A stretch of 63,691 nt of DNA from Acidobacteriota bacterium (GTDB taxonomy: Bacteria; Acidobacteriota; Vicinamibacteria; Vicinamibacterales; CAVVIG01): the NCBI GenBank assembly GCA_003222535.1, contig QHWJ01000342.1:1-63691 (forward strand), read 5' to 3'. The notes below the pieces were generated by a model. It did no database searches and was not told the origin of the DNA. It worked only from the letters and a program-made list of their open reading frames with translations. Of the stretch, positions 8,011-62,390 are shown piece after piece (positions within the stretch are counted from its first letter, which is position 1; the number at the start of each line of letters is the position of its first letter). Both the position numbers and the translations under genes were made by a program.

Positions 8011-8018
8011 AAACGAGC

Positions 8019-9429: not shown

Positions 9430-9506
9430 CTGTTTGTCCTTGGTCCTTGGTGCTTAGGCCTTGGTCCGTCCTTCGTCCCGGGTCCGAGGTCCCGTTCCGC
9501 TGGCCA

Positions 9507-11953: not shown

Positions 11954-11964
11954 TGCTTTGACTC

Positions 11965-12511: not shown

Positions 12512-12524
12512 ATCACTGGATCCT

Positions 12525-12627: not shown

Positions 12628-13005
12628 TCAGGCCTTCTTCGGGCGCTTCGCTCCGTACTTCGAGCGCCCTTGCATGCGCCCGGCCACGCCGACGGCGTCA
12701 AGCGTGCCGCGGACGACGTGGTAGCGAACGCCGGGCAGATCCTTGACGCGGCCGCCGCGAATGAGCACCAGCGAGTGCTCCTGGAGGTTGTGGCCCACGC
12801 CGGGAATGTAGGTCGTCACCTCGATGCCGTTGGTCAGCCGCACGCGCGCAACCTTTCGCAGCGCTGAATTCGGCTTCTTCGGCGTCTGGGTGAAGACGCG
12901 CACGCAGACGCCGCGTTTCTGCGGGCTGTTCTGCAGCGCCGGGCTCTTGGTCTTGCTGACGATCTTCTTGCGCCCGTCGCGCACGAGCTGACTGATGGTC
13001 GGCAT
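12628..13005 (-). CDS. rpsL: 30S ribosomal protein S12
   Basis: 125 residues from ATG at 13005 ([20 protein letters not shown]). Streptomycin-relevant loops are wild-type in form ([20 protein letters not shown] and [20 protein letters not shown]). First gene of the merged operon in this window. Confidence 0.98.
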
Positions 13006-42266: not shown

Positions 42267-44078
42267 CTACTGTCGATGGCAGGCACTGCACGCCCGGCCG
42301 ACCATCAAGCGCACCGCCGTCCCCCGGCCTGCCGGGAACTGGCCGGTCTCGCTTTTGTGACACTCCTTACAGGCGTACCGTCCGTGAAAACCGACGAAGA
42401 AGTCCTCCATCCCGCGGTGGGTATAGGTAGACATCGCGAACGTCGCGGTGTCGTGGCACGTCTGGCACTCCGCGTCAACCTGGCCCAGATGCGGATCCTT
42501 GTGACAGGCCTGACACCGGTTGTCGACGGGATGGAGCCGCATCGCGGTACCCGTTCCCGACGGGAACGCCCGCGTCTCGGTGAGATGACACTTCGCGCAT
42601 TCGGTCGACTGATGTTTCCCCGTCAGCGGGAACTGACTCCGCTCGTGTGAAAACCGGCCGGCCGCGAATTTGACGCCGTCGATCGCGTGGCAGCGTTCGC
42701 ACGCCAGGCCGACCTGGCCCAGGTGCACGTCGGCGTGGCACGAGGCGCATTCCATCAGAGGCGCTTTTGCAGGCACCGCCGCGCCAGGCGCCGTCGACGG
42801 CGAAGCGATCGCGGCAATGACCGCGCCCGACGCGCCCGTTCGGAACGGCTGCGGCATTTTTCCCGGAACGTGACACTTTTCACAGGCCACGTGTTCGTGC
42901 TGCCCGCCGAAGAAGTCGGGTGCGCGCGGATGCTTGAAGTCCTTGGCGCCGAAGGTCGTGGTCTTGTGGCACGACTCACAGACCCGACCGAACTCGCCTT
43001 TGTGCGGATCCTTGTCGCCATGACACGCGACGCACTCGCGCCGGGCGCCGCCGTAGTCCACCACTTTCCGTCCCAGCGGCACCTCGGGCGCGGAAATACC
43101 GGTGTGGCACTTGCGGCAGGCGACGCCTTCGTGCTTGCCGTCGAGCGCGAACGCCGTACGGCTGGCATGGTCGAACGCCGCTCCCTGAAACCCGGTCTCG
43201 GTGTGGCACACGCGGCAGTCTTCCTTCAGGCTGTCGCGATGCACGTTCACGTGGCAGGCTGAACACTGATTGAACCGCACCGGTTTGGTCATCGCCGCCG
43301 ACTGGTGACACTTCGCGCAGGTCACCTCGGCGTGCGCGCCGACCAGGGGGAAGTTCGTTTTCGAGTGGTCGACGCTGCGGGTGCCCCATTTCTCGGTCGT
43401 GTGACACGACGTGCAGGTCGCCGGGAATTTCTTGCCGTGCGGACTCTCGTGGCACGCCGAGCAGGTGCCGAACTCCATGCCACGAAAGGCGCTGGTCTTG
43501 TGACATTTCTCGCACTTCACTTCGCGATGCGCGCCGGTCAACTGGAAGCGAGCGCCCGTATGGTCGAACTGGCTGCGCGACTCCTTGAACGGAATTTTCG
43601 TCGAGTGACAGCGCGTGCAGTCGGTTCCGAGCGCGCCCTTGTGCACATCGGTATGGCACGAGCTGCACACGGGGCGCGCCTCGACAAACGATCGGGTCTT
43701 GTGGCAGGCCGCGCAGTTCGCCGCCGGCTTCGCATGCTGGCCGTCGAGCGCGAATCCGGTTTCTCCCGCATGATCGAAGGTCCGCGTGTCCATGTGACGC
43801 AGCTCGGCGTCGACGCCCGCGTGCTCGACGTGGCAGGACACGCACTCTTTCGCGGTCCGATGGACGCCCGTTCGCCTCGCGATGCGATCCGCGATCGGCT
43901 TGTGACAGCTCAGGCAACGCGCCGCCGCCACTCGCCGTCCGGCTTCGTGGCACCGCTGACAGTTCGCGCCGCCTTCGAGCGCACCATGGGCCCTGGCGAG
44001 CGGGCCTGGCGACAGGAGCTTACCGAGCTGGCCCGCACGAGCAGCAGACACGATACCGATCGTGATCGAAGCCACCAT
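42267..44078 (-). CDS. Exported 23-heme cytochrome c
   Basis: 603 residues from ATG at 44078. Signal peptide ALMVASITIGIVSAARAGQL-like (start MVASITIG). I count 23 CxxCH motifs (CQRCH, CLSCH, CVSCH, CAACH, CSSCH, CTRCH, CEKCH, CSACH, CTSCH, CAKCH, CSACH, CRVCH, CRKCH, CVACH, CESCH, CEKCH, CASCH, CERCH, CAKCH, CQACH, CQTCH, CKECH, CSACH). Repeating blocks of the form F-x-H-x-x-x-x-F-x-L-x-G-x-H-x-x-V-x-C-x-x-C-H (for example FDHASRTAFALDGKHEGVAC) are seen, so it grew by module duplication. Likely a periplasmic or outer-membrane electron carrier. No outer-membrane anchor motif (no lipobox) is visible. Confidence 0.93.
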   Translation of the reverse strand: MVASITIGIVSAARAGQLGKLLSPGPLARAHGALEGGANCQRCHEAGRRVAAARCLSCHKPIADRIARRTGVHRTAKECVSCHVEHAGVDAELRHMDTRTFDHAGETGFALDGQHAKPAANCAACHKTRSFVEARPVCSSCHTDVHKGALGTDCTRCHSTKIPFKESRSQFDHTGARFQLTGAHREVKCEKCHKTSAFRGMEFGTCSACHESPHGKKFPATCTSCHTTEKWGTRSVDHSKTNFPLVGAHAEVTCAKCHQSAAMTKPVRFNQCSACHVNVHRDSLKEDCRVCHTETGFQGAAFDHASRTAFALDGKHEGVACRKCHTGISAPEVPLGRKVVDYGGARRECVACHGDKDPHKGEFGRVCESCHKTTTFGAKDFKHPRAPDFFGGQHEHVACEKCHVPGKMPQPFRTGASGAVIAAIASPSTAPGAAVPAKAPLMECASCHADVHLGQVGLACERCHAIDGVKFAAGRFSHERSQFPLTGKHQSTECAKCHLTETRAFPSGTGTAMRLHPVDNRCQACHKDPHLGQVDAECQTCHDTATFAMSTYTHRGMEDFFVGFHGRYACKECHKSETGQFPAGRGTAVRLMVGRACSACHRQ

Positions 44079-44133
44079 CAGCGCCCGGACGGAAATCGTC
44101 CTCCACGCAGCCGAGGTTCGAACGCCGACGTCA

Positions 44134-44332
44134 GCAGTCCGTGGTGGGAGTCCGCCGCTGCACCGAGGGCGGCGATGCGCCCGGATGGCAAGGCGCGACG
44201 ACCGAGAATATCGGGAATATTTGAGAGAGGAGCAACGCAGCCAGACCCGGGGTCCCCAACGCGGCAGCCGCGTTGGGGTGGAGGAGGGATGCAGCGCCGG
44301 CCGAATGCAGGCGGACTCCCACCACGGGCTGC
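44134..44332. mobile_element. MITE-like element with 23-bp inverted ends
   Basis: GCAGTCCGTGGTGGGAGTCC and GCC (44134-44156) match the reverse complement of 44310-44332 with one mismatch. The 153 bp between contain a second perfect palindrome, CCCCAACGCGGC-A-GCCGCGTTGGGG (44254-44278). No ORF. The right end abuts the stop codon of the b-type cytochrome. No target-site duplication can be fixed with certainty. Confidence 0.6.
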
Positions 44333-45094
44333 TAGTCCATGAACGGCACATATCCCATGTACATGGTAACGGCAACGTGCATGAGAACGATGACGAACAT
44401 GATGTAGACGAGCGGCATGTGGAAGACATGCCACAGGTCGAACAGCGTCTTGGTCTAACGAAGGAGCACCGTGCGGCGGCGCCACCCGGCGCTCGAACGC
44501 CTCGATGTCCGCCAGCAGCTTCTCGGGTAGCGCGGCGGCAGACAGTTCCCGGCTGAGCTGAAGCGCCCGCTCGTCCAGCTCGGCTTGCGTCAGCTCGTGA
44601 CCGCGGATGCTCCGCGGGATTCGTACGAAGAGATACCGGCCCACGAAGCCGGACAGCACGACGACGACCATCGACCAGTACGCGGCGGACACGATGCCGT
44701 TGAACTTGAACGCGGTGTGGAACGTGACGAGCACGGGCCCGAAGATGCCGCAGAACACATGGACCTCGAGCCAGGTCTTGAGGCTGCCGGCGTCGCGGAA
44801 CCGGCGCACTTTCTTGCGCACCGAATAGGCGATAGGGACCAGCATCAGCACGAAGCCGCCGACACCGAACAGATGCCCCACGCGTCCGGCGGGGCGCAGC
44901 ACCTGGTGCGCGCTCGTATACCCGCGCACGGCGGCGGGGGTCGTGTAGTAGGTCCAGCCGTCCAGCCCGACGAGGACGAAGGCCGCGAATATCACGACCG
45001 CGATGGCGCACAGGACCAGCACGTTGCCGAGTGCTTTCACCGGCATCAAGGAGGCAGCCACTGCTGGCGGCTGGTGAGACGGAGTCGCGCTCAT
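44332..45094 (-). pseudogene. b-type membrane cytochrome, frameshifted near its end
   Basis: From ATG at 45094: helices VLVLCAIAVVIFAAFVLVGL, GHLFGVGGFVLMLVPIAYSV, LEVHVFCGIFGPVLVTFHTA (histidines for heme b), SAAYWSMVVVVLSGFVGRYL. The frame opens on to ...EAFERRVAPPHGAPSL; the next expected helix, TLFDLWHVFHMPLVYIMFVI then VLMHVAVTMYMGYVPFMD and TAG at 44332, is in another frame. One indel near 44450-44465 separates them. Either a recent mutation or a sequencing error; everything else is conserved. It would pass electrons from the flavoprotein (45153-46559) towards the c-type cytochromes. Confidence 0.8.
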
Positions 45095-45152: not shown

Positions 45153-46559
45153 TCAGGCGTCGATCGTGCAGTCGCTCTTGATTTTGGTCACGCACGCCAG
45201 CACGAAGCCGTCCTGGCGGTCCTGCTCGTCGAGCATCTGTGACGCGCATTGTACGTCGCCGCTCAGCACCTGTGTGCGGCACGTCCCGCACACGCCCGCG
45301 CGGCACAACGACGGAATGGCGACCCCGCAGGCCTCCGCAGCCTCGAGCATCGTCTGATTGGCCTCGACCGTCGTCGCCGACCCGCTGCGTTCGAAACGTA
45401 AACCGTGGGCCACGGCCTCCTGGGCTGGTGACGCTTCCACGGGCGGCGGTCCCCCGGCACTGGCCGCAACCGCAGCTTGGAAGATCTCGAAGCTGATCTG
45501 CGGTTTCGGAACGCCCATCTTCGCCAGCAGCGCTGTCGTTGCGTCGAGCATCGGCGGCGGTCCGCAGAGCAGACAGACGGCGTGGACGATGTCGGGCGCT
45601 CCCGTGGTGAGAAGCTCCTCGTTGATCCGGCCAGGGAAGAACTCGGGGCCGGCGGGGCCGTCGCTGATCGCGACGAATGCCCGGAACTGGCGGTGGCGGC
45701 GAGCGAGCATCTGAATCTCGTCGCAGAACGCGACGTCCTCGACGGTTCGCACCGCGTAGAAGAGCGTGACGGGACGGGTCGGCTCCGCGTCGATCGCGTG
45801 GCGCAGCATGGACATCAGCGGCGTGATGCCGACGCCACCGGCGATGAGGACGATCGGCCGATCCTCGCCGGCCGGGTAGAAAAATGCGCCGCCGGGAGGT
45901 CGGACCGACAAGGTCGCGCCTGGTCGAACCGTGGCATGCAGCGCGCCCGAGACGAGACCGATCCGTTTCACCGTGATCTCGAGATGGCCTTGCGCACCTG
46001 GTGGCGAGCTGATCGAGTAGCACCTTACGTGTTCCTTGCCGTCGGCACGAACGCGGATGGTGAGAAACTGTCCCGCCTTGAACTCGAATCCTTCCGGTCG
46101 AGCCATCCGGAACGTCCGGACGTCCGGTGTTTCGTCGAAGACCGCCAGGACGGGCGTTTTCACGAATTCATGCGTCCGGCGGGCCGGCTCAACCGGCTTG
46201 CGCGCCATTTGTGCCATCCCGCCGGGCCGCGGCGCGGCGGCGGAAGCCGGAGCAGCAGCGGGCTTCGGAGTCTTCGCGGCCGGGGCTGGCAGGAGTTGCT
46301 CGCAGGCGGCAAACCACCCGACGTGCACGACGAATCCGATGACGAGCCCCAGCAGAGACGATATGAGCCACGGTGACCCGGCGAACAGAACCGAAACGAA
46401 TGTGACGAAACTGTAAGCGGCTGCCGGACTGCGATGCGCACGCAGAACGACCAGGGCGAGATGAATCGTCGTGACAAACGCGAGAATGGGCGGCGCCGCC
46501 GAGTAAACGAAAAATATGGGGAGCATTTTCGCTGATCTCAGAACGTCGGACAGCCGCAC
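45153..46559 (-). CDS. Membrane-anchored flavin reductase with 2Fe-2S ferredoxin domain
   Basis: 468 residues from GTG at 46559 (an ATG at 46526 is also possible). Three helices at the start (FFVYSAAPPILAFVTTIHLA; LISSLLGLVIGFVVHVGWFA), an Ala/Pro linker, then FAD domain (VRCYSISSPPG, RxYS motif), NAD domain (IVLIAGGVGITPLMSML; CLLCGPPPML) and a plant-type ferredoxin end CGVAIPSLCRAGVCGTCRTQ with a fourth Cys in SQMLDEQD-x-...-LACV. Would take electrons from NAD(P)H into the b-type cytochrome encoded next to it. Divergent from the NHL/cytochrome operon. Confidence 0.9.
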   Translation of the reverse strand: MRLSDVLRSAKMLPIFFVYSAAPPILAFVTTIHLALVVLRAHRSPAAAYSFVTFVSVLFAGSPWLISSLLGLVIGFVVHVGWFAACEQLLPAPAAKTPKPAAAPASAAAPRPGGMAQMARKPVEPARRTHEFVKTPVLAVFDETPDVRTFRMARPEGFEFKAGQFLTIRVRADGKEHVRCYSISSPPGAQGHLEITVKRIGLVSGALHATVRPGATLSVRPPGGAFFYPAGEDRPIVLIAGGVGITPLMSMLRHAIDAEPTRPVTLFYAVRTVEDVAFCDEIQMLARRHRQFRAFVAISDGPAGPEFFPGRINEELLTTGAPDIVHAVCLLCGPPPMLDATTALLAKMGVPKPQISFEIFQAAVAASAGGPPPVEASPAQEAVAHGLRFERSGSATTVEANQTMLEAAEACGVAIPSLCRAGVCGTCRTQVLSGDVQCASQMLDEQDRQDGFVLACVTKIKSDCTIDA

Positions 46560-46802: not shown

Positions 46803-47918
46803 ATGACCGTCACGCGAACGTGCTCGAAGACGCTGCTCCGGATCATGGCGACGATGGCGTGCGTCCTTGTCGGTGCCCAGGCCGGGATGCTGGCTACATC
46901 GAAGAAGAAGGCCGTAAAAGGAAAGAGCACCGAGGCGGCGCCCCAACTCGCCTGGCCGCTCGCGCCGGAAGAAGCGAGGATCCGTTACGTCACTACCTAT
47001 CGTGGTGTCGACGATTTCAAGCCTGCGAAGAAGCCGTCGAGATTCCTGAAGGCGCTGCTCGGCGCGGAAGATCCAGGCAGTCAGCCGTCCGACTGGATGA
47101 TGAAGCCGTACGGGGTCGCCGTCTCTCCTGAGGGCCGGTTGTACGTCGCTGACACGGCTGCACGCCGCGTGTTCTCCTTCGACGTGGACGCGAAGACCGT
47201 GAGCTTCGTCGGTGAGAGCGGCGCCGTCCGCCTCACCAAGCCCATTGGCGTTGCGGTCGACGATCGAGGCACGGTCTTCGTTGCGGACGGCACGCTGAAG
47301 CGGGTGTTCGGGTATGGGCCGGCTGGAAACCTTCTGATTGCGATCGGCCACGACGGTGAACTGGCGAGCCCGTCGGGCCTCGCGGTCGACCGCGTGAACA
47401 GACGCGTGTACGTCGCCGATGCGACCAAGCATCAGGTGTTGAGCTATTCGACTGAGGATGGCGCGCTGCGCCGGACGATCGGGCGACGCGGATCGGAGCC
47501 CGGCGAGTTCAACTTTCCGACGAACTTGACCGTCGACGCCCGCGGACAGCTCTACGTGGCGGACACGCTGAATTTTCGCATCCAGATCTTCAACGCGGAC
47601 GGCGAATTCGTGAAGACGTTCGGCACCCAGGGTGATACGCCCGGCAGCTTCAACCGGCCGAAGGGCGTTGCCGTCGACAGCGAAGGACACATCTACGTCA
47701 TGGACGCGTCCTACAACAACTTTCAGATTTTCGACGGGGACGGGAAACTGCTTCTGTTCGTCGGCGCGGGCGGACGCAACCCAGGAGAGTTCTTTCTGCC
47801 GGCCGGCCTCTACATCGACGAGCGCGACCGCCTCTATATCGCGGACCAGGGCAATTCCCGGGTTCAAGTCTTTCAATATCTGCGGGCGGGCGCCGTCCGG
47901 GCCGCGGAACAGGAGTGA
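46803..47918 (+). CDS. Exported NHL-repeat beta-propeller protein (first copy)
   Basis: 371 residues from ATG at 46803; signal peptide RIMATMACVLVGAQAGMLA. Six NHL blades, for example MKPYGVAVSPEGRLYVADTA, TKPIGVAVDDRGTVFVADGT, FNFPTNLTVDARGQLYVADT, FNRPKGVAVDSEGHIYVMDA, FFLPAGLYIDERDRLYIADQ. First gene of the plus-strand operon, 8 bp before the tetraheme cytochrome. NHL proteins recur in porin-cytochrome and cytochrome-filament gene clusters. Confidence 0.92.
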   Translation: MTVTRTCSKTLLRIMATMACVLVGAQAGMLATSKKKAVKGKSTEAAPQLAWPLAPEEARIRYVTTYRGVDDFKPAKKPSRFLKALLGAEDPGSQPSDWMMKPYGVAVSPEGRLYVADTAARRVFSFDVDAKTVSFVGESGAVRLTKPIGVAVDDRGTVFVADGTLKRVFGYGPAGNLLIAIGHDGELASPSGLAVDRVNRRVYVADATKHQVLSYSTEDGALRRTIGRRGSEPGEFNFPTNLTVDARGQLYVADTLNFRIQIFNADGEFVKTFGTQGDTPGSFNRPKGVAVDSEGHIYVMDASYNNFQIFDGDGKLLLFVGAGGRNPGEFFLPAGLYIDERDRLYIADQGNSRVQVFQYLRAGAVRAAEQE

Positions 47919-47926
47919 CCGATCAC

Positions 47927-48697
47927 ATGAAGAAGACCTTTTTGTTTGCCGCGGCAATCGTTCTGGCCGCGGCCTCGACCAGTAATGCGCAGTTCACGGC
48001 AACAATCGCCGGAGGGCCGCACGATCTCAGCAACGGTTCGGCGGTGCGCAACAGCGACGCCGCGATCAACGGGCAGACCTGCGTCTTCTGTCACGTGCCG
48101 CACGGCGGATCCCCGAGCCTGCCGCTGTGGAACAGGGCCAATCCGACGGGTGCGGCGTATCAGGTGTACGCCAGCTCGTCGATGACCGGGGTCGCCACCG
48201 GGGCCGGGATCGCCTCGGGCATCTCCGGTGCGTGCATGAGCTGCCACGACGGCACGATTGCCGTGGATGTCGTCACGAACGTGAATGGGTTGCCCTTCGG
48301 AACGGGAACCACGGGCGGCACCGTCGCCTTCACGGCCGGACCGAACAGGAAAGGGACCTACTCGAACGGCACCGGCGGCTCGGCCAACCTCATGAGCGGA
48401 GGCTCGCCCTTTATCGGATCGGATCTCCGGAACGATCACCCGGTTGCAATTGTCTACCAGACCGTCCAAACGGCGGATCCGGGCCACTACCTGCCGGTGA
48501 CGCAGGTCGGCGCGAAAATCTATATCAACGGCGCCGCCGGGCAGCTTCCGCTCTATGGCACCTCCACCGCCAACGCGACCGTGGAGTGCTCCAGCTGTCA
48601 CGACTCGCACAACAACTCCCTCAACGGAACCAGTGGTGGCTTTCTTCGCATGGCGAACACGGGAAGCCAGATGTGCAAGACCTGCCACAACAAATAG
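47927..48697 (+). CDS. OmcE-like exported tetraheme cytochrome c
   Basis: 256 residues. Signal peptide MKKTFLFAAAIVLAAASTSN-A, cleavage near residue 21. Four CxxCH: CVFCH 52-56, CMSCH 103-107, CSSCH 221-225, CKTCH 250-254. Extra histidines at 32, 59, 171, 187 and 228 are enough for bis-His ligation of all four hemes. The layout H-D/N-L-S ... C-x-x-C-H-x-P-H, PLWNRANP, SCHDGTIAVD, LRNDHPVAIVY, VECSSCHDSHNN, FLR, and a final CxxCH at the C-terminus matches my recollection of the OmcE-type extracellular tetraheme cytochromes that polymerise into filaments. Neighbouring NHL, PpiC and barrel genes fit that context. Polymerisation is inference. Confidence 0.82.
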   Translation: MKKTFLFAAAIVLAAASTSNAQFTATIAGGPHDLSNGSAVRNSDAAINGQTCVFCHVPHGGSPSLPLWNRANPTGAAYQVYASSSMTGVATGAGIASGISGACMSCHDGTIAVDVVTNVNGLPFGTGTTGGTVAFTAGPNRKGTYSNGTGGSANLMSGGSPFIGSDLRNDHPVAIVYQTVQTADPGHYLPVTQVGAKIYINGAAGQLPLYGTSTANATVECSSCHDSHNNSLNGTSGGFLRMANTGSQMCKTCHNK

Positions 48698-48707
48698 CCC
48701 GCTGAAA

Positions 48708-49727
48708 ATGAAAATACTCAGCCTCCTCCTTGCATCGCTAGCCGTGTGTCTGGCCGCATCGGCGGCCGAACAGGCCGTGCCGCCGCCCGGACGGGCCATG
48801 CCGTCGCATGCGGTCGCCGGGCCGGTCCGCCCACCCGCCCACGAAGTCGTCCGTGTCAACGGCGTGCCGCTCATGAGCGGCCGGCTCGACGCGGCCGTCA
48901 ACTCACTGATCCCGGCGGAGTCGTTCCACCGCAACGTGAGCGCCGAGAAGATGGAGACATTGCGGCAGCGGGCACTCCAGACGCTCGTCGACGACGAGCT
49001 GAAGTACCAGGACGGCGTGCGCCGAATGGTCAAGGCGTCTGGCGCGGAAGTCGAGACCGCGCTGGCGCAGGCCGCGAAGAGGTACGGCGGGCGGCGCACC
49101 TTCGAAGACGCGCTCGGTCAGGCCGGTGCCTCGATGGCCGACACACGCCGGGAGATCCGGCGGACGATCACGATTCAGAAAGTCTCCGCCCGCACGGTCG
49201 GCACCAGATGCGAAGTGAGCCGGGACGAAGCCGCGCGCTTTTTCAGGGCGAACCCGGACCGGTTCGTCGAACCCGAACAGCTCCACATCTACGCGATCAC
49301 GGTGGGCGTGGATCCGAGCAGTACCGCACAACAGTGGTCCGACGCCAGGTCTCGAGCCGCGACAGCGCGGGCCGAGCTCGGGGCCGGCGCTTCCTTCGAG
49401 GACATGGCACTGAAGTATTCAACCGACCCGAGCAGAACCACAGGCGGCGATATGGGACTGGTCCATCGAGGCAGTCTCAGCGACACGTTCGAGCAGGTCG
49501 CGAGAGATCTGCCGCTCGGACGACCCAGCGACGTCATCGAGACGTTGTACGGGTACCACATCGTTCGCGTATCCGAGGTCCGTCCCCCGCAGAAGAAAAC
49601 GTTCGGCGAAGTGGCGACGGGCCTCCGCAAGGACCTGACAGCAAAGCGCTGCACGGACCTGAACGATGCGTGGGTGTCCGGACTCCGTGCCCGGGCGACC
49701 GTCGTCTTCCCGGAGCCGGGGCGATGA
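48708..49727 (+). CDS. Exported PpiC/SurA-type peptidyl-prolyl isomerase
   Basis: 339 residues from ATG at 48708. Signal peptide KILSLLLASLAVCLAASAA; SurA-like N-terminal helices (VVRVNGVPLMSGRLDAAVNS; LQTLVDDELKYQDG); one parvulin domain at about 215-310 (LHIYAITVGVD, ASFEDMALKYSTDPSRTTGG, DMGLVHRGSLSDTFEQVARD, LYGYHIVRVSEVRPP). Probably folds or escorts the barrel or the cytochromes of this operon. Overlaps the barrel gene by 4 bp. Confidence 0.92.
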   Translation: MKILSLLLASLAVCLAASAAEQAVPPPGRAMPSHAVAGPVRPPAHEVVRVNGVPLMSGRLDAAVNSLIPAESFHRNVSAEKMETLRQRALQTLVDDELKYQDGVRRMVKASGAEVETALAQAAKRYGGRRTFEDALGQAGASMADTRREIRRTITIQKVSARTVGTRCEVSRDEAARFFRANPDRFVEPEQLHIYAITVGVDPSSTAQQWSDARSRAATARAELGAGASFEDMALKYSTDPSRTTGGDMGLVHRGSLSDTFEQVARDLPLGRPSDVIETLYGYHIVRVSEVRPPQKKTFGEVATGLRKDLTAKRCTDLNDAWVSGLRARATVVFPEPGR

Positions 49728-51544
49728 GGCGCGCCGCCTGCCTGCTCGTCCTCTCCCTCGCGCAGCTCGCAGTCGTCGCCAGCGCTCAGACGACGATTGA
49801 CGGTTCGGCTGCGTGGACCGTGGACAGGAACGCGAGCAGCTCCAACGGTCAGTCGAATACCAACAGCTCGTTCTGGCAGAACTATGCCCTCGGTTATGCG
49901 TCGTCGTTGTGGGACCCACGGATCGTGAAGTACAAGACCGAGGGCTTGTTTCGCACCAACAGCCTGACATCGGCCGGCACGGGCCAGGACGTGCAGCAGG
50001 GACGCCAGGGGGATTTCGGCTACAAGCTGGGCGCGGCCCTGTTCCCGGCGAGCGCATTCCCGTTTTCCGTTCAGGCGACCCGCGACATCAGCGGCTCGTC
50101 AGGTGACCTGGGCCCCTCGAACCCGATCCGCAGCGGCATGATTGTCCCGTCCGGCGCGCCGCCGGTCGACTTCGAGTCCCGCAACAAGAGCCTGACCCTC
50201 GGGTGGCAGCTCGGTCTCGGAGACCTGCCCCGTGTCGAGCTCGGGTACCATCAGGGCAACTCCGTCGTGAACGGCGGATCGTACCGGACCCAACAGGACG
50301 ACGAAGATCTCTCCGCGGCGGTGTTCAAGGATACGGCGAGCACCCGGCAGTCTTTCCGCTTTCAGCGGACATCGTTCGAGAACCAGCTCGCGCAGACGTT
50401 CATACAGCGGCTGAACAACCTCGACTACGACCTCGGTGTCACGTTGACCGAACACACCAATCTCACGGCCCATGGCGGCCGCCGCACCACGTTTTCCCAG
50501 TCCGACTTCGAGTCGACTGTCGTCGACCCGGCCACAGGAGCGTACACACTCCCCCAGTCGCAGGGTGGAGCGCGCGCCGAGTACGTGACCGGCGGTTACA
50601 GCTACGAGCCAACCTCGCGAGTGTCACTCCGGCTCAACGGGACTTTCGATCGGCAGATTGCGCAGTACGGATCGACGAGCGCCAGGCTCGCGACGATGAC
50701 CAGTCATGTGGAAGTGATTCGTGGCCTGACCGTCACCGGGAGCGGAACCACCGGCGTTCGCGGACAGATGCTGGGGAACGTTCCCGTCACCGTGTCGACC
50801 CGAAGCGGCGTCGCGGGTGTCGCCTACCAGACCGGCCCGCGCTGGCTGAACGCTAATGTGGGCGCCACGCGTGGCATGGGGTCGAACGTCACTCCTGAAG
50901 GGCGGAAAGGCACCAGCGAGTCCTGGTCCAGAGAGCTGAGCCTCTCGTCGACGCTTGGATGGCTCGGCCTTGGAACCGGCTACGAACGCGTCAGGAACCG
51001 CGACGGGATTCTCGACTACGGGAACTACGACAGTGAACGCCTGCGAGCCTCGGCGCAGGCACAGGCCCGAGGCGCGTCTCTTTCCACCACGGCCGAGCAG
51101 TTGCGCATCGAGCGGGGTCAGCAGCTCACGCTGGCCCACAACGTGCAGCGGACCTTTTCGGGATCGGCGTCGTTCCGCTTGTGGCGGCAGAGTCTGGCGA
51201 CCGCCACCACCGGCGGCTTCGTCAACGATTACGCGAACGCATTCGGGATCGGCCGCGACCAGACGCTGTTCTGGGGCGTAGGTGGTCAGACGGGTTTTCG
51301 GCTGCTGCGCGCCTCAGCGTGGATTCGCAGCGAAGAGGTCAGGACGGCCAGGACGGGTTACTACCAGCAGGGGCTGAGCAGCTTCGCCCGACTGGAGTAT
51401 CGCCTGCGAACCCTCAACGTCGCGGCTGAGTACCGCCGCAACTTCAGCCTTCTGCAATACGCTCAGGCGTTCAACCCCGACAGTTTCCGCGGACGCCAAT
51501 TCCGCCTCAGCATCATTCGGCAGTTCGGTTTCAGAGTACGATGA
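49724..51544 (+). CDS. Outer-membrane beta-barrel protein (candidate cytochrome conduit or secretion pore)
   Basis: 606 residues, signal peptide LLVLSLAQLAVVASAQTTID. The rest is a run of amphipathic strands with alternating hydrophobic residues and turns (for example SFWQNYALGYASSLWDP, SLTLGWQLGLGDLPRVELGY, YVTGGYSYEPTSRVSLRLNG, TLFWGVGGQTGFRLLRASAW) and it ends with an aromatic-basic strand RLSIIRQFGFRVR. No plug or lipobox. Size and position suit an MtrB/OmbB-like porin or a filament exporter, but sequence alone does not tell which. Confidence 0.78.
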   Translation: MRRAACLLVLSLAQLAVVASAQTTIDGSAAWTVDRNASSSNGQSNTNSSFWQNYALGYASSLWDPRIVKYKTEGLFRTNSLTSAGTGQDVQQGRQGDFGYKLGAALFPASAFPFSVQATRDISGSSGDLGPSNPIRSGMIVPSGAPPVDFESRNKSLTLGWQLGLGDLPRVELGYHQGNSVVNGGSYRTQQDDEDLSAAVFKDTASTRQSFRFQRTSFENQLAQTFIQRLNNLDYDLGVTLTEHTNLTAHGGRRTTFSQSDFESTVVDPATGAYTLPQSQGGARAEYVTGGYSYEPTSRVSLRLNGTFDRQIAQYGSTSARLATMTSHVEVIRGLTVTGSGTTGVRGQMLGNVPVTVSTRSGVAGVAYQTGPRWLNANVGATRGMGSNVTPEGRKGTSESWSRELSLSSTLGWLGLGTGYERVRNRDGILDYGNYDSERLRASAQAQARGASLSTTAEQLRIERGQQLTLAHNVQRTFSGSASFRLWRQSLATATTGGFVNDYANAFGIGRDQTLFWGVGGQTGFRLLRASAWIRSEEVRTARTGYYQQGLSSFARLEYRLRTLNVAAEYRRNFSLLQYAQAFNPDSFRGRQFRLSIIRQFGFRVR

Positions 51545-51548
51545 TGGG

Positions 51549-52589
51549 ATGCGTCGCTCTCACGTTCCGGTCCTCGTCGCCACATCCATCTTGCTGGCTG
51601 TGGACGTTCCGTCCGTCCCTTCGACCGAAACCTTAGAAGCACAGGCGCCGAGTCGCCAGGCCCCGTCTTCGAGCAGCCGTCCAGCCTGGCCGGCGCCGCC
51701 GGCCCCTGCGCGCATCCGATTCCTCAGGACGCTGGAGCCGTCGGCGGTTCGCGGGCGCCCGTCGATGTTGTCCAGGCTCCTGGGCGTGCTCACCGGCGCT
51801 CAGGTCGAGCCGAAGATGTCGCAGCCATACGGCATCGCCGTCGGTCCGGATCACCGGATCTACGTGGCCGATACGTTCGGCGGAACCATCCACGTCTACA
51901 ACCTCGAAAAACCCGACTACTCGTCGATCAAAGTCGACGGCAGTTCGCTCATCGGAATCGGATTCACGGCGAACCGGATGTTCGTCACCGATTCGGCCTC
52001 AGGCCGGCTGTTGTGCCTCGACGCCAGAGGACGCACACAGTGGACTCTCGGGCCGAAGAACGGATTCGAGCGGCCCACCGGAATCGCCACCTCGAAGGAG
52101 CGGCTGTACGTCGTCGACACGATGAAACACCGCGTGGTGATGGTGAGCGTGACCGGCGCGATCGTCGGGAGCTTCGGCACGCGGGGCAGTGAGCCGGGGG
52201 AGTTCAACTTTCCGACCAATATCGCGCGGAGCCCCGACGGGCGCCTGTTCGTCACCGATTCGATGAATTTCCGCGTGCAGGTTTTTAGTGAAGATGGCCG
52301 CCTCCTGAGCACCTTTGGCCGGCTCGGCGACGGCTCGGGAGACTTCGACAAACCCAAAGGCATCGCCGTGGACAGCGCCGGCCACATCTACGTCGTCGAG
52401 GGAATCAACGACGTGGTGCAGATCTTCGACGACGAGGGCAAGCTGCTGCTGGCGTTCGGCGGATCGGGCTTCGGCGAGGGACAGTTCTGGCTGCCGTCCG
52501 GCATCGCCATCGCGAACGACGTCGTGTACGTCGCCGACTCGGCGAACCGTCGCGTCCAGATGTTCGAGTACCTGAAGGAGAGCCGTTGA
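51549..52589 (+). CDS. Exported NHL-repeat beta-propeller protein (second copy)
   Basis: 346 residues, 4 bp after the barrel gene. Signal peptide VPVLVATSILLAVDVPSVPS-like, then NHL blades: MSQPYGIAVGPDHRIYVADT, FERPTGIATSKERLYVVDTM, FNFPTNIARSPDGRLFVTDS, FDKPKGIAVDSAGHIYVVEG, FWLPSGIAIANDVVYVADSA. Clearly paralogous to the protein at 46803-47918 (shared GSEPGEFNFPTN block). Two diverged propellers in one operon suggest two partners. Confidence 0.92.
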   Translation: MRRSHVPVLVATSILLAVDVPSVPSTETLEAQAPSRQAPSSSSRPAWPAPPAPARIRFLRTLEPSAVRGRPSMLSRLLGVLTGAQVEPKMSQPYGIAVGPDHRIYVADTFGGTIHVYNLEKPDYSSIKVDGSSLIGIGFTANRMFVTDSASGRLLCLDARGRTQWTLGPKNGFERPTGIATSKERLYVVDTMKHRVVMVSVTGAIVGSFGTRGSEPGEFNFPTNIARSPDGRLFVTDSMNFRVQVFSEDGRLLSTFGRLGDGSGDFDKPKGIAVDSAGHIYVVEGINDVVQIFDDEGKLLLAFGGSGFGEGQFWLPSGIAIANDVVYVADSANRRVQMFEYLKESR

Positions 52590-54373
52590 AAGGACGCCGG
52601 CTCGCGCTGCTCCTTGCAGCGGTGGTGCTGGCGACTCGTTCCGCGCCGGGCCAGGTCATGGTCACATCGCCGACCAACAAGCACAACCTGTCGCGCAGCG
52701 GTCCGGGACCGGTCAAGTCCACGGCGATGACCGAGATTTGCATCTTCTGCCACACGCCGCACAACGCGAATCCGGCCGCTCCTCTGTGGAATCAGACCTT
52801 GTCCGGCGTCACTTATACGCCGTACACGAGCACGACGATGGTCGCCACGGCTGGGGTTCCGTCGGGTTCCTCGAAGCTGTGTCTGAGCTGCCATGACGGC
52901 ACGGTGGCGATCGGCAGCACGATGAGCGGCCGCCAGATCCCGATGCAGGGGCTGACGGGTGGAAAGCTGACCGGACCATCGTCACTGGGCTTGAATCTGA
53001 GCGACGATCACCCGATTGCATTCGTGCCGGTCACCGGTTCGCAGATCGTCAATCCAGCCCTGGGGAGTGCGGTCAAGCTCGATAAGAACGGACAAATCCA
53101 GTGCCGGACGTGCCACGACCCCCACCAGATGGACATCGACCCGACGGCGAAGAAGTTTCTGGCAGCCAGCAATTCAGCGTCTGCCTTGTGTGTCACGTGT
53201 CACCGTCAACAGTACTGGGCGGCGAACCCGAGCACCCACATGACGTCGACCAAGGCGTACACGCTCACGCAGGGGGCGCACACGGGGTACGCCACCGTCG
53301 CGACCAACGGATGCGAAAGCTGCCACAAACCGCACACCGCTCCGGAGGCGGCGCGCGGGCTGAAGGCCCCGGAGGAGCTGACCTGCGGAGGGACCGGATC
53401 GCAGTGCCACGGCACAACAGCCGTCGGTCGGGACATCCAGTCGGAGTTCCTGAAGGCTTACGCACATCCAACTTACAGCGTCACGCCGTCGGTGCACGAC
53501 GCGTCGGAATCGCCGACGAATTCGTCGCACATGCTCCCCGAAATATCGGCGGCGACGCCCCGGCACGCCGAGTGCGCGGATTGCCACAATCCCCACTCGA
53601 GTTACGCCGCGACCTCTGTCGCCCCGAAAGGTTCCGGCAAGGTGTCGGGTGTGGCGGGCGTCAACAGGAATAATGTGGCGGTCTTTCCGAGCGGTACGCC
53701 GCCCTCGGTGAACGAGTACGAGATCTGCTTCAAGTGTCACGCCGATTCGGCGAACATGCCGCAGGGCGGCGGAGCGCCCTACCCGCCGTATGCCAGTCGT
53801 CAGGCGCCGCAGTGGAACAAACGGCTGCAATTCGACTCGACGGCCGTCTCGTACCATCCGATCGAGGCAACGGCCAGGGCCACGTCGGCGCCCAGCCTCA
53901 AGACGCCCTGGACATTGACCAGCATCGTCGCCTGCACGGACTGCCACGACAACGACACCGGTCCCAACGCACCGACGCCGGGAACCGGTCCATCAGGGCC
54001 GCACGGCTCGAGCTTCAAGCATTTGCTCGTCGCGCGCTACGACATGGACAACCAGAACACAGCCGAGAGCGCGGACACCTACGCTCTCTGCTACAAGTGC
54101 CACGATCGGAGCATTATCCTGGGCATTGCGTCCTTCAAGGAGCACCTCCGGCACATTCTGCTCGACAATGCGTCCTGCTCGATCTGCCACGACCCGCACG
54201 GCATCAGCAGTGCGCAGGGCACGACGACGAACAACGCCCACCTGATCAATTTCGACAGGCGGTTCGTCACGCCGAGCAGCAACGGTGCGCTCCGGTGGGA
54301 GCAAACGAGCCCCGACAAGGGTCGCTGTTACCTGTCTTGTCACGGCCATAGCCACAATCCATCGTCTTATTGA
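52586..54373 (+). CDS. Exported multiheme cytochrome c (10 canonical, up to 12 hemes)
   Basis: 595 residues from TTG at 52586 overlapping the NHL stop (TTGA). Signal peptide RLALLLAAVVLATRSAPGQV. Ten CxxCH: CIFCH, CLSCH, CRTCH, CVTCH, CESCH, CADCH, CFKCH, CTDCH, CYKCH, CSICH; and two stretched motifs, CGGTGSQCH (CX6CH) and CYLSCH (CX3CH). The first 150 residues (HNLSRSG, CIFCHTPHNANPAAPLWNQT, SCHDGTVAIG, LSDDHPIAFV) are homologous to the tetraheme protein upstream, so this is a longer member of the same family. Candidate partner or alternative filament subunit. Confidence 0.9.
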   Translation: MKGRRLALLLAAVVLATRSAPGQVMVTSPTNKHNLSRSGPGPVKSTAMTEICIFCHTPHNANPAAPLWNQTLSGVTYTPYTSTTMVATAGVPSGSSKLCLSCHDGTVAIGSTMSGRQIPMQGLTGGKLTGPSSLGLNLSDDHPIAFVPVTGSQIVNPALGSAVKLDKNGQIQCRTCHDPHQMDIDPTAKKFLAASNSASALCVTCHRQQYWAANPSTHMTSTKAYTLTQGAHTGYATVATNGCESCHKPHTAPEAARGLKAPEELTCGGTGSQCHGTTAVGRDIQSEFLKAYAHPTYSVTPSVHDASESPTNSSHMLPEISAATPRHAECADCHNPHSSYAATSVAPKGSGKVSGVAGVNRNNVAVFPSGTPPSVNEYEICFKCHADSANMPQGGGAPYPPYASRQAPQWNKRLQFDSTAVSYHPIEATARATSAPSLKTPWTLTSIVACTDCHDNDTGPNAPTPGTGPSGPHGSSFKHLLVARYDMDNQNTAESADTYALCYKCHDRSIILGIASFKEHLRHILLDNASCSICHDPHGISSAQGTTTNNAHLINFDRRFVTPSSNGALRWEQTSPDKGRCYLSCHGHSHNPSSY

Positions 54374-54722: not shown

Positions 54723-55607
54723 CTAACCGTAGAATTCCCGCTTGATGCGATCGTTCGGAACGCCGAGCGTCTTCAGGTCGGCGAGCACCGCCTCGAGAAA
54801 GCGCGGCTGCGGCTCGGTTCCGGCTTCCTTCGCGGCGGCGATGTCGAACTTTGAAATCCCGGGGCCGCAGACGTAGACGTAACACCCGGTCGGCTGCGGA
54901 ATCACTTCGCGCAGGAGCGGCAGGCCGATCCGCCCCTTTCGCACGGTCGGTCCGTACACGGCCGGATTCTCTTCGCGCGTCAGGCTGTGCACGACGGTGA
55001 GCCGATCGGGATGCGCGGCCGCCAGCCGCGCCAGTTCGTCGCGGAAGATCGTATCCACCCACATCTTGTTCGAGTAGACGAACGTGTGCCGCAGCGCCGG
55101 ATGGTGCGCCAGCGCGAACTTGAGTATCGAGAAATTCGGCACGCTCCCCGATCCGGCGCAGACGTGCACGATGTGATCGGTCTTCGAGCTGATATCGGCC
55201 GGCAGCGTGTACGGCCCCGTGAATCCGGTCACGACGAGCCGCATGCCGCGGGTCGTCCGCTTGGTGAGCAGCGGCGACAGCAGCGGAGGAAACTTCGTCG
55301 CGCCGGACACGTAACGCTCTTCCTTTACGGTGATGGCCAGATGCCGCTCGTGCGGCGCCGAGCACATCGAGTAGGCGCGCGGCGGCTCCTTCTTTCCTTT
55401 CAGGTCCTCCAGGAACGACGTGAATCGATGCAGCGCCTCGAACTGATGGGGATCCACGGTCAGGAAGTGTCCGGCGCTGTATTCGAGCCGATCGTTGCCC
55501 GTGAAGAACACGAGGGTCGTCGTGTCGGGTGCCTCGACGACGACGTCGGCCACCATGACCTCCAGCTCCTTGATGCGACGCCGCGAGGTCGTTTCGGGCT
55601 CGCTCAT
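54723..55607 (-). CDS. Ferredoxin-NADP-reductase-like flavoprotein
   Basis: 294 residues from ATG at 55607. FAD domain with PPRAYSMCSAPHERHLAITV (RxYS), NAD(P) domain HIVHVCAGSGSVPNFSILKF and CYVYVCGPGISKFD. No ferredoxin domain. Overlaps the transporter gene by 4 bp, so it belongs to the sugar cluster by transcription although it could supply electrons elsewhere. Natural partner unknown. Confidence 0.85.
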   Translation of the reverse strand: MSEPETTSRRRIKELEVMVADVVVEAPDTTTLVFFTGNDRLEYSAGHFLTVDPHQFEALHRFTSFLEDLKGKKEPPRAYSMCSAPHERHLAITVKEERYVSGATKFPPLLSPLLTKRTTRGMRLVVTGFTGPYTLPADISSKTDHIVHVCAGSGSVPNFSILKFALAHHPALRHTFVYSNKMWVDTIFRDELARLAAAHPDRLTVVHSLTREENPAVYGPTVRKGRIGLPLLREVIPQPTGCYVYVCGPGISKFDIAAAKEAGTEPQPRFLEAVLADLKTLGVPNDRIKREFYG

Positions 55608-56848
55608 GACACCCGTTCGACGGCCGATTCGCGATCGGCCTCGGACGACCGGAAAAAGAGCGCGAAGAGCGCGAGGACGAGCAAGGCACCGGCGGCGGGG
55701 ACGAGCCAGATCCCGCGCCAGTCGTGCCCGCCGGTTCCGAGGCGGAACGCGTCGACGACGCGGCCTGACGCCCAGGAACCGATGAACATCCCGACGCCGA
55801 GCGTCACGAAGGCGATGAACCCCTGCGCCGCGGCGCGCAGATCGGGTGGCGCCTTTGTATCGACATAGATCTGGCCGGTGACGAAGAAGAAGTCGTAGCA
55901 GATCCCGTGCAGGAGGATGCCGGCGTAGAGCATCCACACCATATCGGCGTTGTTCCCGTACGCGAAGAGCGCGTAGCGCGTCGTCCAGGCGGCCATGCCG
56001 GCCAGCAGCATGTACTTCACGCCGAGGCGGCGGAAGAACCACGGCATGACGAGCATGAAGAAAATCTCGGACATCTGGCCGAGCGTCATCTTCCCCGCCG
56101 CGTTGGTCACGCTCAGCTCGTTCAGGAACGGGTTCGCGAACGCGTAGTAGAACTGCAGCGGGATGCAGACCAGGAACGAACCGAGCACGAACACCGCGAA
56201 CGAGCGTTCGCCGAGCAGCTTCAGCGCGTCGAGGCCGAGGATGCTGACAACCGTGGGCTTGCGTTCGTGGCGTCCGGCTCCAGCCGGACCCCTGCGTTCG
56301 AGCGGCGGCGTGTGCGGCAGGGCCAGACAGAACACGCCGAGCAGGAGCGATGCGCCGCCGGCAATCCGCAGCGGCATGGCGGTCGCTTCGAGCCCGAGCG
56401 TGCCGATCGCGAGCCCCGCGACAATCCAGCCGATCGTCCCGAGCACGCGGATGGGCGGAAACTCACGGCCGGGGTCGTCCATCTGCCGGAACGACAATGA
56501 GTTGCTCAACGCGAGCGTCGGCATGTAACACAGAGTATAAGCGAGGATCACGCCATAGAAGGCGCCGAACGTCGTTTGCATGGACGCGAAAAAGAGCACG
56601 ACGCCGCCGAGCACGTGCAGCAACGAGAGGATTCGCTCCGTCGCCAGGAATCGATCGGCGACCATGCCCAGGAAGAACGGCGAGATCATCGCGGCGAGCG
56701 CCGTCGAGCCGGCCGCCAGCCCGATCTGCTCGCCGGAAAAATGCAGCGTCTCGCCCAGCCACGTCCCCATCGTCACGTACCACGCGCCCCAGACGAAGTA
56801 CTGCAGGAACATCAGGGCGGACAGTTTCAGGCGGACGGTGGAAGTCAT
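55604..56848 (-). CDS. MFS transporter, nucleoside:H+ symporter-like
   Basis: 414 residues from ATG at 56848. Twelve helices; starts LSALMFLQYFVWGAWYVTMG and has FFLGMVADRFLATERILSLL, typical of the NupG/XapB-like group. The central cytoplasmic loop includes ERRGPAGAGRHER, which is a translated REP palindrome (56272-56289). Overlaps the next gene by 4 bp. Likely imports a sugar or nucleoside-like substrate for the coupled enzymes. Confidence 0.88.
   Translation of the reverse strand: MTSTVRLKLSALMFLQYFVWGAWYVTMGTWLGETLHFSGEQIGLAAGSTALAAMISPFFLGMVADRFLATERILSLLHVLGGVVLFFASMQTTFGAFYGVILAYTLCYMPTLALSNSLSFRQMDDPGREFPPIRVLGTIGWIVAGLAIGTLGLEATAMPLRIAGGASLLLGVFCLALPHTPPLERRGPAGAGRHERKPTVVSILGLDALKLLGERSFAVFVLGSFLVCIPLQFYYAFANPFLNELSVTNAAGKMTLGQMSEIFFMLVMPWFFRRLGVKYMLLAGMAAWTTRYALFAYGNNADMVWMLYAGILLHGICYDFFFVTGQIYVDTKAPPDLRAAAQGFIAFVTLGVGMFIGSWASGRVVDAFRLGTGGHDWRGIWLVPAAGALLVLALFALFFRSSEADRESAVERVS
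56272..56289. repeat. GTCCGGCTCCAGCCGGAC palindrome inside the MFS gene
   Basis: Lies in the codons for the loop between helices 6 and 7. Adds loop residues only and keeps the frame. Confidence 0.85.
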
Positions 56849-60725: not shown

Positions 60726-62390
60726 TTATTGATACAGCGCAAACGAATACAGCGTGTCGCCGGCCGCCACCAGGACGTGCTGCCGCCCGTCGACCATGTA
60801 CGTTTCCGGCGCGTTCGACACCTGACCGATCTGCGTGTGCCACAGCGGCCTGCCGCCGGCCGGATCGAACGCGACGAAGTTGCCCGAGACGTCGCCGCCG
60901 AAGAGCAGCTTTCCGGCCGTCGTCAGCAATCCCGGCGCGCCGCGAGAGCCGCCCGCCGTCCTGAATTTGTGGCGCCACACCGTCTTGCCGGTCTTGTAGT
61001 CGATCGCCGAAATGTAGGTGCCCATCGAGCCGACGCCGATTTCGTCCTTGCCGCCGAGCCCCATCGCGCCGCGCGGATCCGTTTCGCTCAGGTAATACAT
61101 CGCGTAGGTCTCCGACGTCGGCACGTAGAGGAGCCCGGTGTCGGGACTGTAGGCGGGCGGCGGCCAGTTGGTGGCCCCTCCATTGGCCGCGGACACGAGC
61201 GCGCCGGCGATGTGGTGATCCTTGGCGGGCAGCGTGAAGTAATAGCCGTTGCGGCTGGCGGTGAGCACCATCGTGCGCGGGCCGCTGCCGCCGAACATGC
61301 CATCGACCAGCACCGGCGTCTGCGCGGAGTCCCAGTCGTGCGTGTCGTGCGGCGACGTCTGGTAGTACCACTCCATCTTGCCGGTGTCGACGTTCACCGC
61401 CACGATCGCGCACGTGAACAGATTGTCCATCCCCTCGCCACGCGGCTTCGACGTGTACGCCGGCGTCGGATTGCCCGTGCCGAAGATGTACAGCTTCGTG
61501 TCGGGATCGTAGACGCCCGGCAGCCACGGATGACCGCCGCCATGCCGCGCCGCGTCGAGGCTTTTCCACGTGTCCAGCCCGGGATCGCCCGGATTCATCG
61601 GCACGGTGTAGAACCGCCACTGCCGGTCGCCGGTTTCGGGATCGTACGAGGTGAGATATCCCGGTGAATCGAGATCGTTGCCGGTGCCGACGAGGATGTG
61701 GTTGCCGATCGCCATCGGCGCGGACGTCAGGAAATACTGCTGCGCGAAGCTCGCCGCTTCCTTGTGCCAGCGCTCCCTGCCCGTCCGCGCATCGAGCGAG
61801 ACGAAGTAATCGTCCGGCGTGACGAAGTACAGATAGTTGCCCCACATCGCCGCGCCGCGGTTGCCGATGTGCGTGCCGCCCTTCGTCTTCCAGAAGTAGT
61901 GCCACAACTCGTGACCGTCGTTGGCGTCGAGCGCCCACACGTTGTCGGGCGCGGTGACGTACAGCACGTTGTTCACCATCAGCACGGCGCCCTTCACCGC
62001 CGCGCCGCCGACCGCGATGTCGCCCGTGCCTTCGCCGCCCACGATCGTTTTCGCGGCGGGACCCGAGCCGGTTCCGCCGGTGATTTTCGCGACCCACGCG
62101 AGCGTCAGGTTTTTCACGTTCGACTGATCGATCTGCGTGAGCGCGCTGTAGCGGCGGCCGGTGTAGTCGCCGGAGTACGACGTCCACTGATCGGCGAGCG
62201 GCTTGAGCAGCGCCGCCGGATCGAGACCCTGCGCACCCACGACAGTGAACGCGAAGCCCGCAAAGAACGCCAGGAACGCAAAGAGAGAAATTGCTTTTGC
62301 ACGCTTTGCGGCCTTTGCGTTTGATGTCGTTGGGGTAGTAAACGCTGTCGTCGTGCGTAGCGCGAAGGCTTCAGCCGAGCGGTTTCTCAT
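60726..62390 (-). CDS. PQQ-dependent dehydrogenase (quinoprotein alcohol/sugar dehydrogenase type)
   Basis: 554 residues. Eight-bladed propeller repeats (NVWALDANDGHELWHYFWKT, YFVSLDARTGRERWHKEAAS, LTSYDPETGDRQWRFYT, AIDYKTGKTVWRHKFRTAGG, VAFDPAGGRPLWHTQIGQ) with QTSPHDTHDWDSAQTPVLVD. No heme domain, so it relies on the cytochrome c encoded just upstream. The first 50 residues are odd: AEAFALRTT comes from the palindrome at 62359 and NAKAAKRAKAISLFAFLAFF from a CGCAAAG repeat; together they still make a plausible signal peptide (AFLAFFAGFAFTVVGAQG). ATGA overlap with the cytochrome gene. Confidence 0.9.
   Translation of the reverse strand: MRNRSAEAFALRTTTAFTTPTTSNAKAAKRAKAISLFAFLAFFAGFAFTVVGAQGLDPAALLKPLADQWTSYSGDYTGRRYSALTQIDQSNVKNLTLAWVAKITGGTGSGPAAKTIVGGEGTGDIAVGGAAVKGAVLMVNNVLYVTAPDNVWALDANDGHELWHYFWKTKGGTHIGNRGAAMWGNYLYFVTPDDYFVSLDARTGRERWHKEAASFAQQYFLTSAPMAIGNHILVGTGNDLDSPGYLTSYDPETGDRQWRFYTVPMNPGDPGLDTWKSLDAARHGGGHPWLPGVYDPDTKLYIFGTGNPTPAYTSKPRGEGMDNLFTCAIVAVNVDTGKMEWYYQTSPHDTHDWDSAQTPVLVDGMFGGSGPRTMVLTASRNGYYFTLPAKDHHIAGALVSAANGGATNWPPPAYSPDTGLLYVPTSETYAMYYLSETDPRGAMGLGGKDEIGVGSMGTYISAIDYKTGKTVWRHKFRTAGGSRGAPGLLTTAGKLLFGGDVSGNFVAFDPAGGRPLWHTQIGQVSNAPETYMVDGRQHVLVAAGDTLYSFALYQ
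62359..62381. repeat. Family-2 palindromic element at the PQQ-dehydrogenase start
   Basis: AGCGCGAAGGCTTCAGCCGAGCG, within codons 4-14. Confidence 0.85.

Follow-up and report, generated by a model that had tools for sequence, protein, structure and literature searches.

A Uet-like operon of an acidobacterium encodes a predicted OmcE-family tetraheme cytochrome and a candidate filament anchor

How a wire of polymerized cytochromes could be attached to the outer membrane of the cell that makes it is the question raised by an operon on contig QHWJ01000342.1 of the acidobacterial genome assembly GCA_003222535.1 (order Vicinamibacterales), which we analyzed as a stretch of 63,691 nucleotides, hereafter the window. 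Membrane anchoring and the points of electron entry and exit of cytochrome wires are listed as open problems in a 2025 review (PMC12307469; this and the other papers are cited from their accessible portions). The operon consists of six genes in a tight series on the + strand (46803-54373) that encode, in this order, an NHL protein, a tetraheme cytochrome c, a PpiC-type protein, a candidate beta-barrel, a second NHL protein, and a 12-heme cytochrome c. The published system that it recalls is Uet ("undecaheme electron transfer"), with the extracellular tetraheme cytochrome UetA, the peptidylprolyl isomerase UetB, the beta-barrel porin UetC, the trihemes UetDEG, the NHL proteins UetHI, and the undecaheme cytochrome UetJ (PMC10734462). 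We lean towards reading the operon as a Uet-type cluster for extracellular electron transfer that lacks the trihemes and in which a UetA-like wire is joined via UetJ and the barrel.

The argument for a wire starts from the tetraheme protein (47927..48697, +, ATG start), a UetA-like cytochrome and putative filament subunit with an N-terminus that, judged by eye, resembles a signal peptide. In a phmmer search of the PDB, the only significant matches were OmcE (7tfs, E 1.1e-30, residues 20-256) and 9yuq (E 1.1e-23), a full-length homologue of 218 residues deposited as "Putative multiheme cytochrome c"; a 25-row profile strengthened both (1.7e-63 and 3.1e-51, respectively), with the next match at 6e-5. 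Kinship to OmcE, proposed in an earlier first-pass annotation of this DNA, is thus upheld, and the kinship to OmcS proposed alongside it is not: OmcS (6ef8), which has six hemes against the four found here, was matched by the profile at E 0.0017, with a best stretch of just 17 residues. A single-chain model was predicted with AlphaFold2 from a 97-row alignment (mean predicted local distance difference test score, pLDDT, 74.3; predicted template modelling score, pTM, 0.69) and has the OmcE fold: at a Foldseek limit of E<=0.001 it matches 7tfs alone (E 1.1e-8, probability 1.00, TM 0.54/0.67), with a structural alignment of 188/202 residues at Z 13.8 and a root-mean-square deviation (rmsd) of 3.0. 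The four CxxCH motifs and five spare histidines counted previously are all present, but only four of the latter are conserved: H32, H59, H171, and H228 are invariant in 25/25 rows of a narrower alignment (A1), whereas the fifth, H187, is not conserved. Across the 97 rows of a broader alignment (A2, which left out six of the 102 listed tetraheme rows), the four CxxCH motifs are always present, as are H171 and H228; H32 is found in 93 rows, as is H59. Of the UetA-type chains, 89 of the 92 in A2 (with the five split forms excluded) and all 25 in A1 stop within three residues after heme 4.

By sequence and predicted fold, the tetraheme protein is best assigned to the OmcE family, and once exported with the help of the PpiC protein it would polymerize as an OmcE-type filament. 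In OmcE, one interfacial heme receives its second histidine ligand from the next subunit, and the filament has a rise of 34 Å (PMC12954529). Several points weigh against a filament. Eight histidines suffice for four hemes within a single chain and are equally compatible with a monomer; OmcS homologues are not known as wire formers, and hidden Markov models (HMMs) may miss true wires beyond a genus (PMC12977616); and what OmcE filaments do physiologically is itself disputed, with one paper holding this protein to be dispensable for current and for Fe(III) oxide reduction (PMC13194489). The tetraheme protein could then be a non-polymerizing cytochrome of the OmcE family, a monomeric surface or periplasmic carrier that works with a Uet porin-cytochrome complex, in keeping with the description of UetA as an extracellular tetraheme cytochrome in a paper in whose accessible text the term OmcE is absent (PMC10734462). 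We consider a carrier of this kind unlikely, given that the closest relatives in the PDB are OmcE, solved as a filament, and 9yuq, present in 16 copies in one entry (and absent from the rows of the fold search), and that the fold matches OmcE over nearly all of the residues compared.

If the UetA-like protein does form a filament, the 12-heme cytochrome (52586..54373, +, TTG start) is the protein through which the wire could be joined. It is UetJ-like and falls into an OmcE-like 4-heme head (52586 to about 53206, +) and an 8-heme tail (about 53210-54370, +). The earlier description as a 10- or 12-heme protein holds on both counts, since there are 10 CxxCH motifs, and 12 motifs in all once a CX6CH and a terminal CX3CH are included; its sharing of the tetraheme N-terminal block was likewise confirmed, at 33% identity to the neighboring protein over 206 columns (E 2e-30, single comparison). 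The head matches 7tfs at 6.4e-21, residues 6-207 aligning to 9yuq and 6-160 to OmcE, and the tail alone produced no PDB match at E<=10 (phmmer). All 12 motifs are conserved in a UetJ alignment of 32 rows (A3, which left out 19 of 50 long rows). There the sixth motif, CX6CH in the window and plain CxxCH in most relatives, has an invariant Cys-Cys-His. The C-terminal CX3CH has the last Cys and the His in every row and its first Cys in at least 90%; in the wider set, a CX3CH lies near the C-terminus in only 58 of 86 tail-bearing proteins. The number of CxxCH motifs in 58 fused relatives is 11 in 46, 10 in seven, nine in two, 13 in two, and 14 in one.

Two observations set the head apart from the filament subunit. 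The first is phylogenetic: in a carefully computed tree, a set of 37 rows, made up of UetJ heads and five split forms, is separated from 70 UetA/OmcE rows by one branch with support 98/98, which recurred in 96% of 200 bootstrap trees, a bootstrap that had not settled. Of the 97 A2 rows, the trees include just the 78 in which exactly four CxxCH motifs are present, and five more rows, with long branches or odd composition in a quick tree, were dropped for the careful one; the quick tree already placed the five split forms among the heads, with group support of only 80-82. Because the heads form a branch of their own, the head of UetJ is not a recent copy of the neighboring tetraheme gene. The second is architectural: the UetJ tail begins exactly where UetA-type chains stop, just past heme 4. 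Across 86 tail-bearing proteins in 74 loci, the tail is fused to a head, encoded directly downstream of a separate head gene (a class in which L036, with a 972-residue frame, is doubtful), or headless (a class that also contains 13-heme proteins of 760-1070 residues).

UetJ may accordingly be imagined as the anchor of OmcE-type nanowires, a paralogue with its own clade, lengthened where the filament subunit stops and with its tail in or on the barrel, a proposal that we hold tentatively and with considerable doubt. The UetC-like barrel and the 8-heme tail would form the passage across the outer membrane, the OmcE-like head would occupy the first position of the filament and so provide the electrical junction between filament and barrel, and the NHL propellers might serve as assembly or tethering factors. 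If heme 4 lies at the subunit interface, as we infer, the tail occupies the position that another subunit would otherwise fill, and UetJ would have to sit at one fixed end of the filament. A likeness to MtrA would suit a tail that spans the membrane; MtrA of the Mtr complex (6r2q) is the best structural match of the predicted UetJ model, at Z 8.6 (217/265 residues, rmsd 3.9), which is barely above the Z of 7 to 8 that the tool typically gives for models with no clear match.

Other results weigh against the anchor. The UetJ model is weak (pLDDT 64.8, pTM 0.63), most of the head (residues 19-33, 50-116, and 123-145) has pLDDT <50, the head matches 7tfs only at Z 3.1, and Foldseek returned nothing for this model at E<=0.001. 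The head retains its heme ligands, so that an internal position in the filament is compatible with the data, and loci of the Holophagaceae type carry the tail with no head. Moreover, the argument from head-tail polarity fixes UetJ at one end and is silent on which, as would also suit an outer tip or an extracellular terminal reductase in place of the filament base. We judge a tip to be rather improbable, as the barrel family is encoded within 4 kb on the same strand for 56 of the 86 tail-bearing proteins, a measure of neighborhood and not of contact. Should the anchoring role of UetJ be correct, the widespread Uet clusters would be nanowire export-and-anchor machines, and the junction between wire and membrane would gain a concrete candidate in the 13 named phyla in which a UetJ-type protein is present. 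The link between OmcE and Uet, together with the OmcE-like head, in any case singles out a specific protein to test for anchoring.

The other operon genes supply the remaining parts of the proposed machine. An NHL beta-propeller gene (46803..47918, +; Pfam NHL 3.7e-40) lies upstream of the uetA-like gene, which is followed by the gene for the UetB-like PpiC-type prolyl isomerase with a SurA-like N-terminal part (48708..49727, +; Pfam Rotamase_3 1.6e-17, SurA_N_3 6.4e-8), that for the UetC-like predicted outer-membrane beta-barrel (49724..51544, +), and a second NHL beta-propeller gene (51549..52589, +; Pfam NHL 1.3e-28) directly upstream of the uetJ-like gene. Successive genes are separated by 8 bp with the ATG start of the tetraheme gene (or overlap by 4 bp with an alternative GTG at 47915), 10 bp, a 4-bp overlap, 4 bp, and a 4-bp overlap; the coupled six-gene operon of the first-pass annotation, with its overlaps and gaps of 4-10 bp, is present in full. 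Both cytochromes match Pfam families of doubled-CxxCH cytochromes, and their 4 and 10 CxxCH motifs compare with maxima of 1 and 2 after residue shuffling (2000 draws for each). The barrel nature of the fourth product is inferred: it matched no Pfam family at E<=1, neither it nor the tetraheme protein matched any NCBIfam family above its cut-off, and the C-terminal residue of its family is Phe in 34 of 70 members and Trp in three, the window member ending in Arg. Scans for promoters and terminators found sites no more numerous than in shuffled sequence. The assembly comprises 8.06 Mb in 450 contigs (95.5% complete, 1.4% contamination), contig 60 (63.7 kb) being the window, and a search of it with the tetraheme protein returned this locus only. 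The host was correctly recognized as an acidobacterium in the first pass; contamination of this metagenome-assembled genome (MAG) was considered and is unlikely, as the contig bears, by eye, a ribosomal-protein-like operon at 150-13000, and relatives of a 23-heme gene next to the operon occur in 16 of 162 genomes of the host's order, its own included.

Is the gene order of the window a recurrent one? We compared 80 loci (the best 80 of 521 relatives), 20 from Acidobacteriota, and 13 from the order of Geomobilimonas luticola. The loci were picked by resemblance to the tetraheme protein and contigs often end within the cluster, so that the counts are not unbiased frequencies; genes were typed by automatic rules (no barrel was scored in L101, for example), and three pairs of loci overlap (L033/L128, L040/L074, and L044/L078). 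The recurrent order is NHL, tetraheme, PpiC, barrel, (trihemes), NHL, and a cytochrome with 11 CxxCH, with members often missing. Among the 80 loci, a UetA-type gene was scored in 74, with an NHL gene adjoining the tetraheme gene in 57, and the tetraheme gene occurs together with the barrel family (by iterative HMM) in 51, with a UetJ-type gene in 37, and with PpiC in 26; all five gene types are present in 13 and all but PpiC in 34. A UetJ-type gene was scored in 43 of the 80 loci, and in 41 of these an NHL gene adjoins it. The exact series of the window (NHL, UetA, UetB, UetC, NHL, UetJ) was found in L033/L128 (one contig), L049, L051, L068, and L094; the full order with trihemes included is seen in L083 and L087, and that without them in the window, L128, L049, and L051.

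The tetraheme rows of A2 span 16 named phyla among the loci examined. In Acidobacteriota, the distribution of the cluster is patchy, with tetraheme matches at E<=1e-10 in 36 of 297 sampled genomes. Its rarity in the host's own order is a point against our reading: the tetraheme profile matches nine of 162 genomes, the host included (in G471, the match is confined to a frame of UetJ size), and UetJ was found in four of 27 genomes of the host's family, once as a fragment. A groundwater acidobacterium (G005; L033-L035 and L128) has nine matches to the tetraheme protein at E<=1e-10, several in separate genes. Geothrix-like loci (L039, L041, L042, L043, L045, L047, and L072) carry a cytochrome of about 1010-1050 residues with 42 to 43 CxxCH motifs beside the tetraheme cluster, and 13-heme proteins near several of them bear the UetJ tail domain.

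Divergent from the operon is a set of three genes on the - strand. A reductase with NAD-, FAD-, and 2Fe-2S-binding domains (45153..46559; Pfam NAD_binding_1 4e-19, Fer2 2.4e-17, FAD_binding_6 1.2e-11) has N-terminal hydrophobic segments by hydropathy and is followed by a membrane-protein gene, possibly for a b-type cytochrome (44335..45094), that is interrupted in this assembly. In a tblastn search with its 293-residue counterpart from L194, for which the sole Pfam hint was DUF4405 at 0.0058, under the cut-off, the gene was recovered as two segments in different frames, interrupted by an in-frame stop, a break that reflects either decay or an assembly error. The third gene encodes a 603-residue cytochrome c with 23 CxxCH motifs and 49 His (42267..44078; Pfam Cytochrome_C7 1.6e-26), a candidate periplasm-crossing wire with no related solved structure at E<=0.001; between it and the membrane-protein gene, about 44090-44330 looks by eye like an intergenic repeat in several frames. 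The whole nine-gene divergent layout, NHL genes included, recurs in a genome of the same family (G443, L194), where the membrane protein is encoded in a single frame, and in G476 (L198), a 23-heme gene is convergent to NHL and UetJ-type genes. Against frames of other acidobacterial clusters, the 23-heme protein matched L106 strongly and L093 weakly; a relationship to the 21-heme genes that precede other acidobacterial clusters was considered and dropped, none being found among the frames compared. The match in L106 comes from a single frame (381-4130) whose 20-heme region, homologous to the 23-heme protein, is fused with a DUF6079 region and a cytochrome b561 domain.

This gene set hints at a path that leads from the inner membrane through the periplasm, and where intact, the reductase, membrane protein, and 23-heme cytochrome would connect the filament to the inner membrane. 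In the present cell, the broken membrane-protein gene weakens the case for use of that path. Elsewhere in the window, a second NAD-binding reductase frame (54723-56042, -; Pfam NAD_binding_1, 5e-10) is convergent with the uetJ-like gene, and at 60726-63304 (-) a pyrroloquinoline quinone-type dehydrogenase gene stands beside a class I cytochrome c gene (both by Pfam), a further redox pair on the contig.

In which direction electrons would flow bears on what the filament is for. An inward circuit, from Fe(II), Mn(II), or another solid donor to oxygen, is a real possibility, only a little short of even, as a role of Uet in taking up electrons or oxidizing iron has been proposed for Tenderiales, Gallionella, and the Leptothrix group (PMC10734462 among the sources) and the genome encodes two heme-copper oxidases. 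On the other side, no large chain of RuBisCO was found in this genome (95.5% complete), as would be needed for electroautotrophy by that route, and the NAD- and FAD-binding domains of the adjoining reductase suit export at least equally. Five weak matches to an MtrA-type conduit elsewhere in the genome all lie under the TIGR03508 cut-off. Taken together, two heme-copper oxidases, no RuBisCO, and no MtrA above the cut-off make a respirer with export or with non-autotrophic uptake likelier than an electroautotroph. Export to minerals or humics is slightly favored over uptake because no RuBisCO was found.

Within its coverage, which lacked the OmcE paper, Baquero 2023, Shen 2025, and Eddie 2022, our literature search found no link between Uet and OmcE, and no earlier statement that an OmcE-headed UetJ anchors a filament; one paper contains both terms, with OmcE, in its accessible text, in the reference list only (PMC12575090). 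The comparison with Uet, made on gene content and order against the published description and not against the Tenderia sequences, is close: the Uet loci of Ca. Tenderia electrophaga, Gallionella, and the Leptothrix group have, by that description, the same tetraheme, PpiC, barrel, NHL, and long cytochrome content, and Tel_16515-16545 of Ca. Tenderia electrophaga, which encode trihemes, a TPR protein, and an undecaheme cytochrome, are consistent with Uet (PMC5371394). The window differs in having a divergent 23-heme cytochrome and reductase alongside and in lacking a triheme gene within 46803-54373. Because the UetDEG genes are missing, the operon is, on its gene content, labeled a Uet-like core and not a full Uet.

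With the OmcE nanowire of Geobacter sulfurreducens (7tfs), the tetraheme protein shares family, eight heme ligands, predicted fold, and a chain end just past heme 4. The neighborhoods differ. Geobacter filament cytochromes had been described in the first pass as encoded near NHL proteins, prolyl isomerases, and barrels; in the 13 loci from the order of Geomobilimonas luticola, NHL does stand beside the tetraheme gene in all 13, but PpiC occurs in none within the stretch fetched, and the barrel family of the window was scored in three, once weakly (E 5e-4). Eleven of these loci carry 8- to 10-heme genes upstream with neither UetJ nor PpiC, and the remaining two (L163 and L164) carry UetJ; the G. 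sulfurreducens locus itself lies outside this comparison. The companion (osc) cluster of OmcS also employs a prolyl isomerase, channel proteins, and a propeller. GSU2500-2493 are tied to OmcS maturation and secretion (PMC12977616), and OmcS itself has the weak sequence likeness to our tetraheme protein given above. An operon of SEEP-SRB1 shares the trio of propeller, peptidylprolyl isomerase, and large cytochromes, the propeller being six-bladed and the cytochromes having 16 and 26 hemes, with no OmcE-type tetraheme named in the accessible text (PMC5539420). A 2013 study of Arctic peat metagenomes sought OmcE/S/Z and did not find them (PMC3669403). In karst MAGs, seven porin-cytochrome clusters are centered on undecaheme or >20-heme cytochromes, and Gammaproteobacteria and Acidobacteriota account for 21 of the 36 MAGs that bear clusters; OmcS/OmcE wires lie outside that study, and its accessible text does not state the phyla of the undecaheme clusters (PMC13264449). 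The novelty for this lineage implied in the first pass was too strong, as the cluster matches published Uet (PMC10734462) and the family occurs across the phyla counted above. From its genes, the operon is best described as a variant of a published, widespread system, for which reason its occurrence in this lineage holds, by itself, modest interest, and a wider range of bacteria, acidobacteria included, becomes worth examining for wire-based electron transfer.

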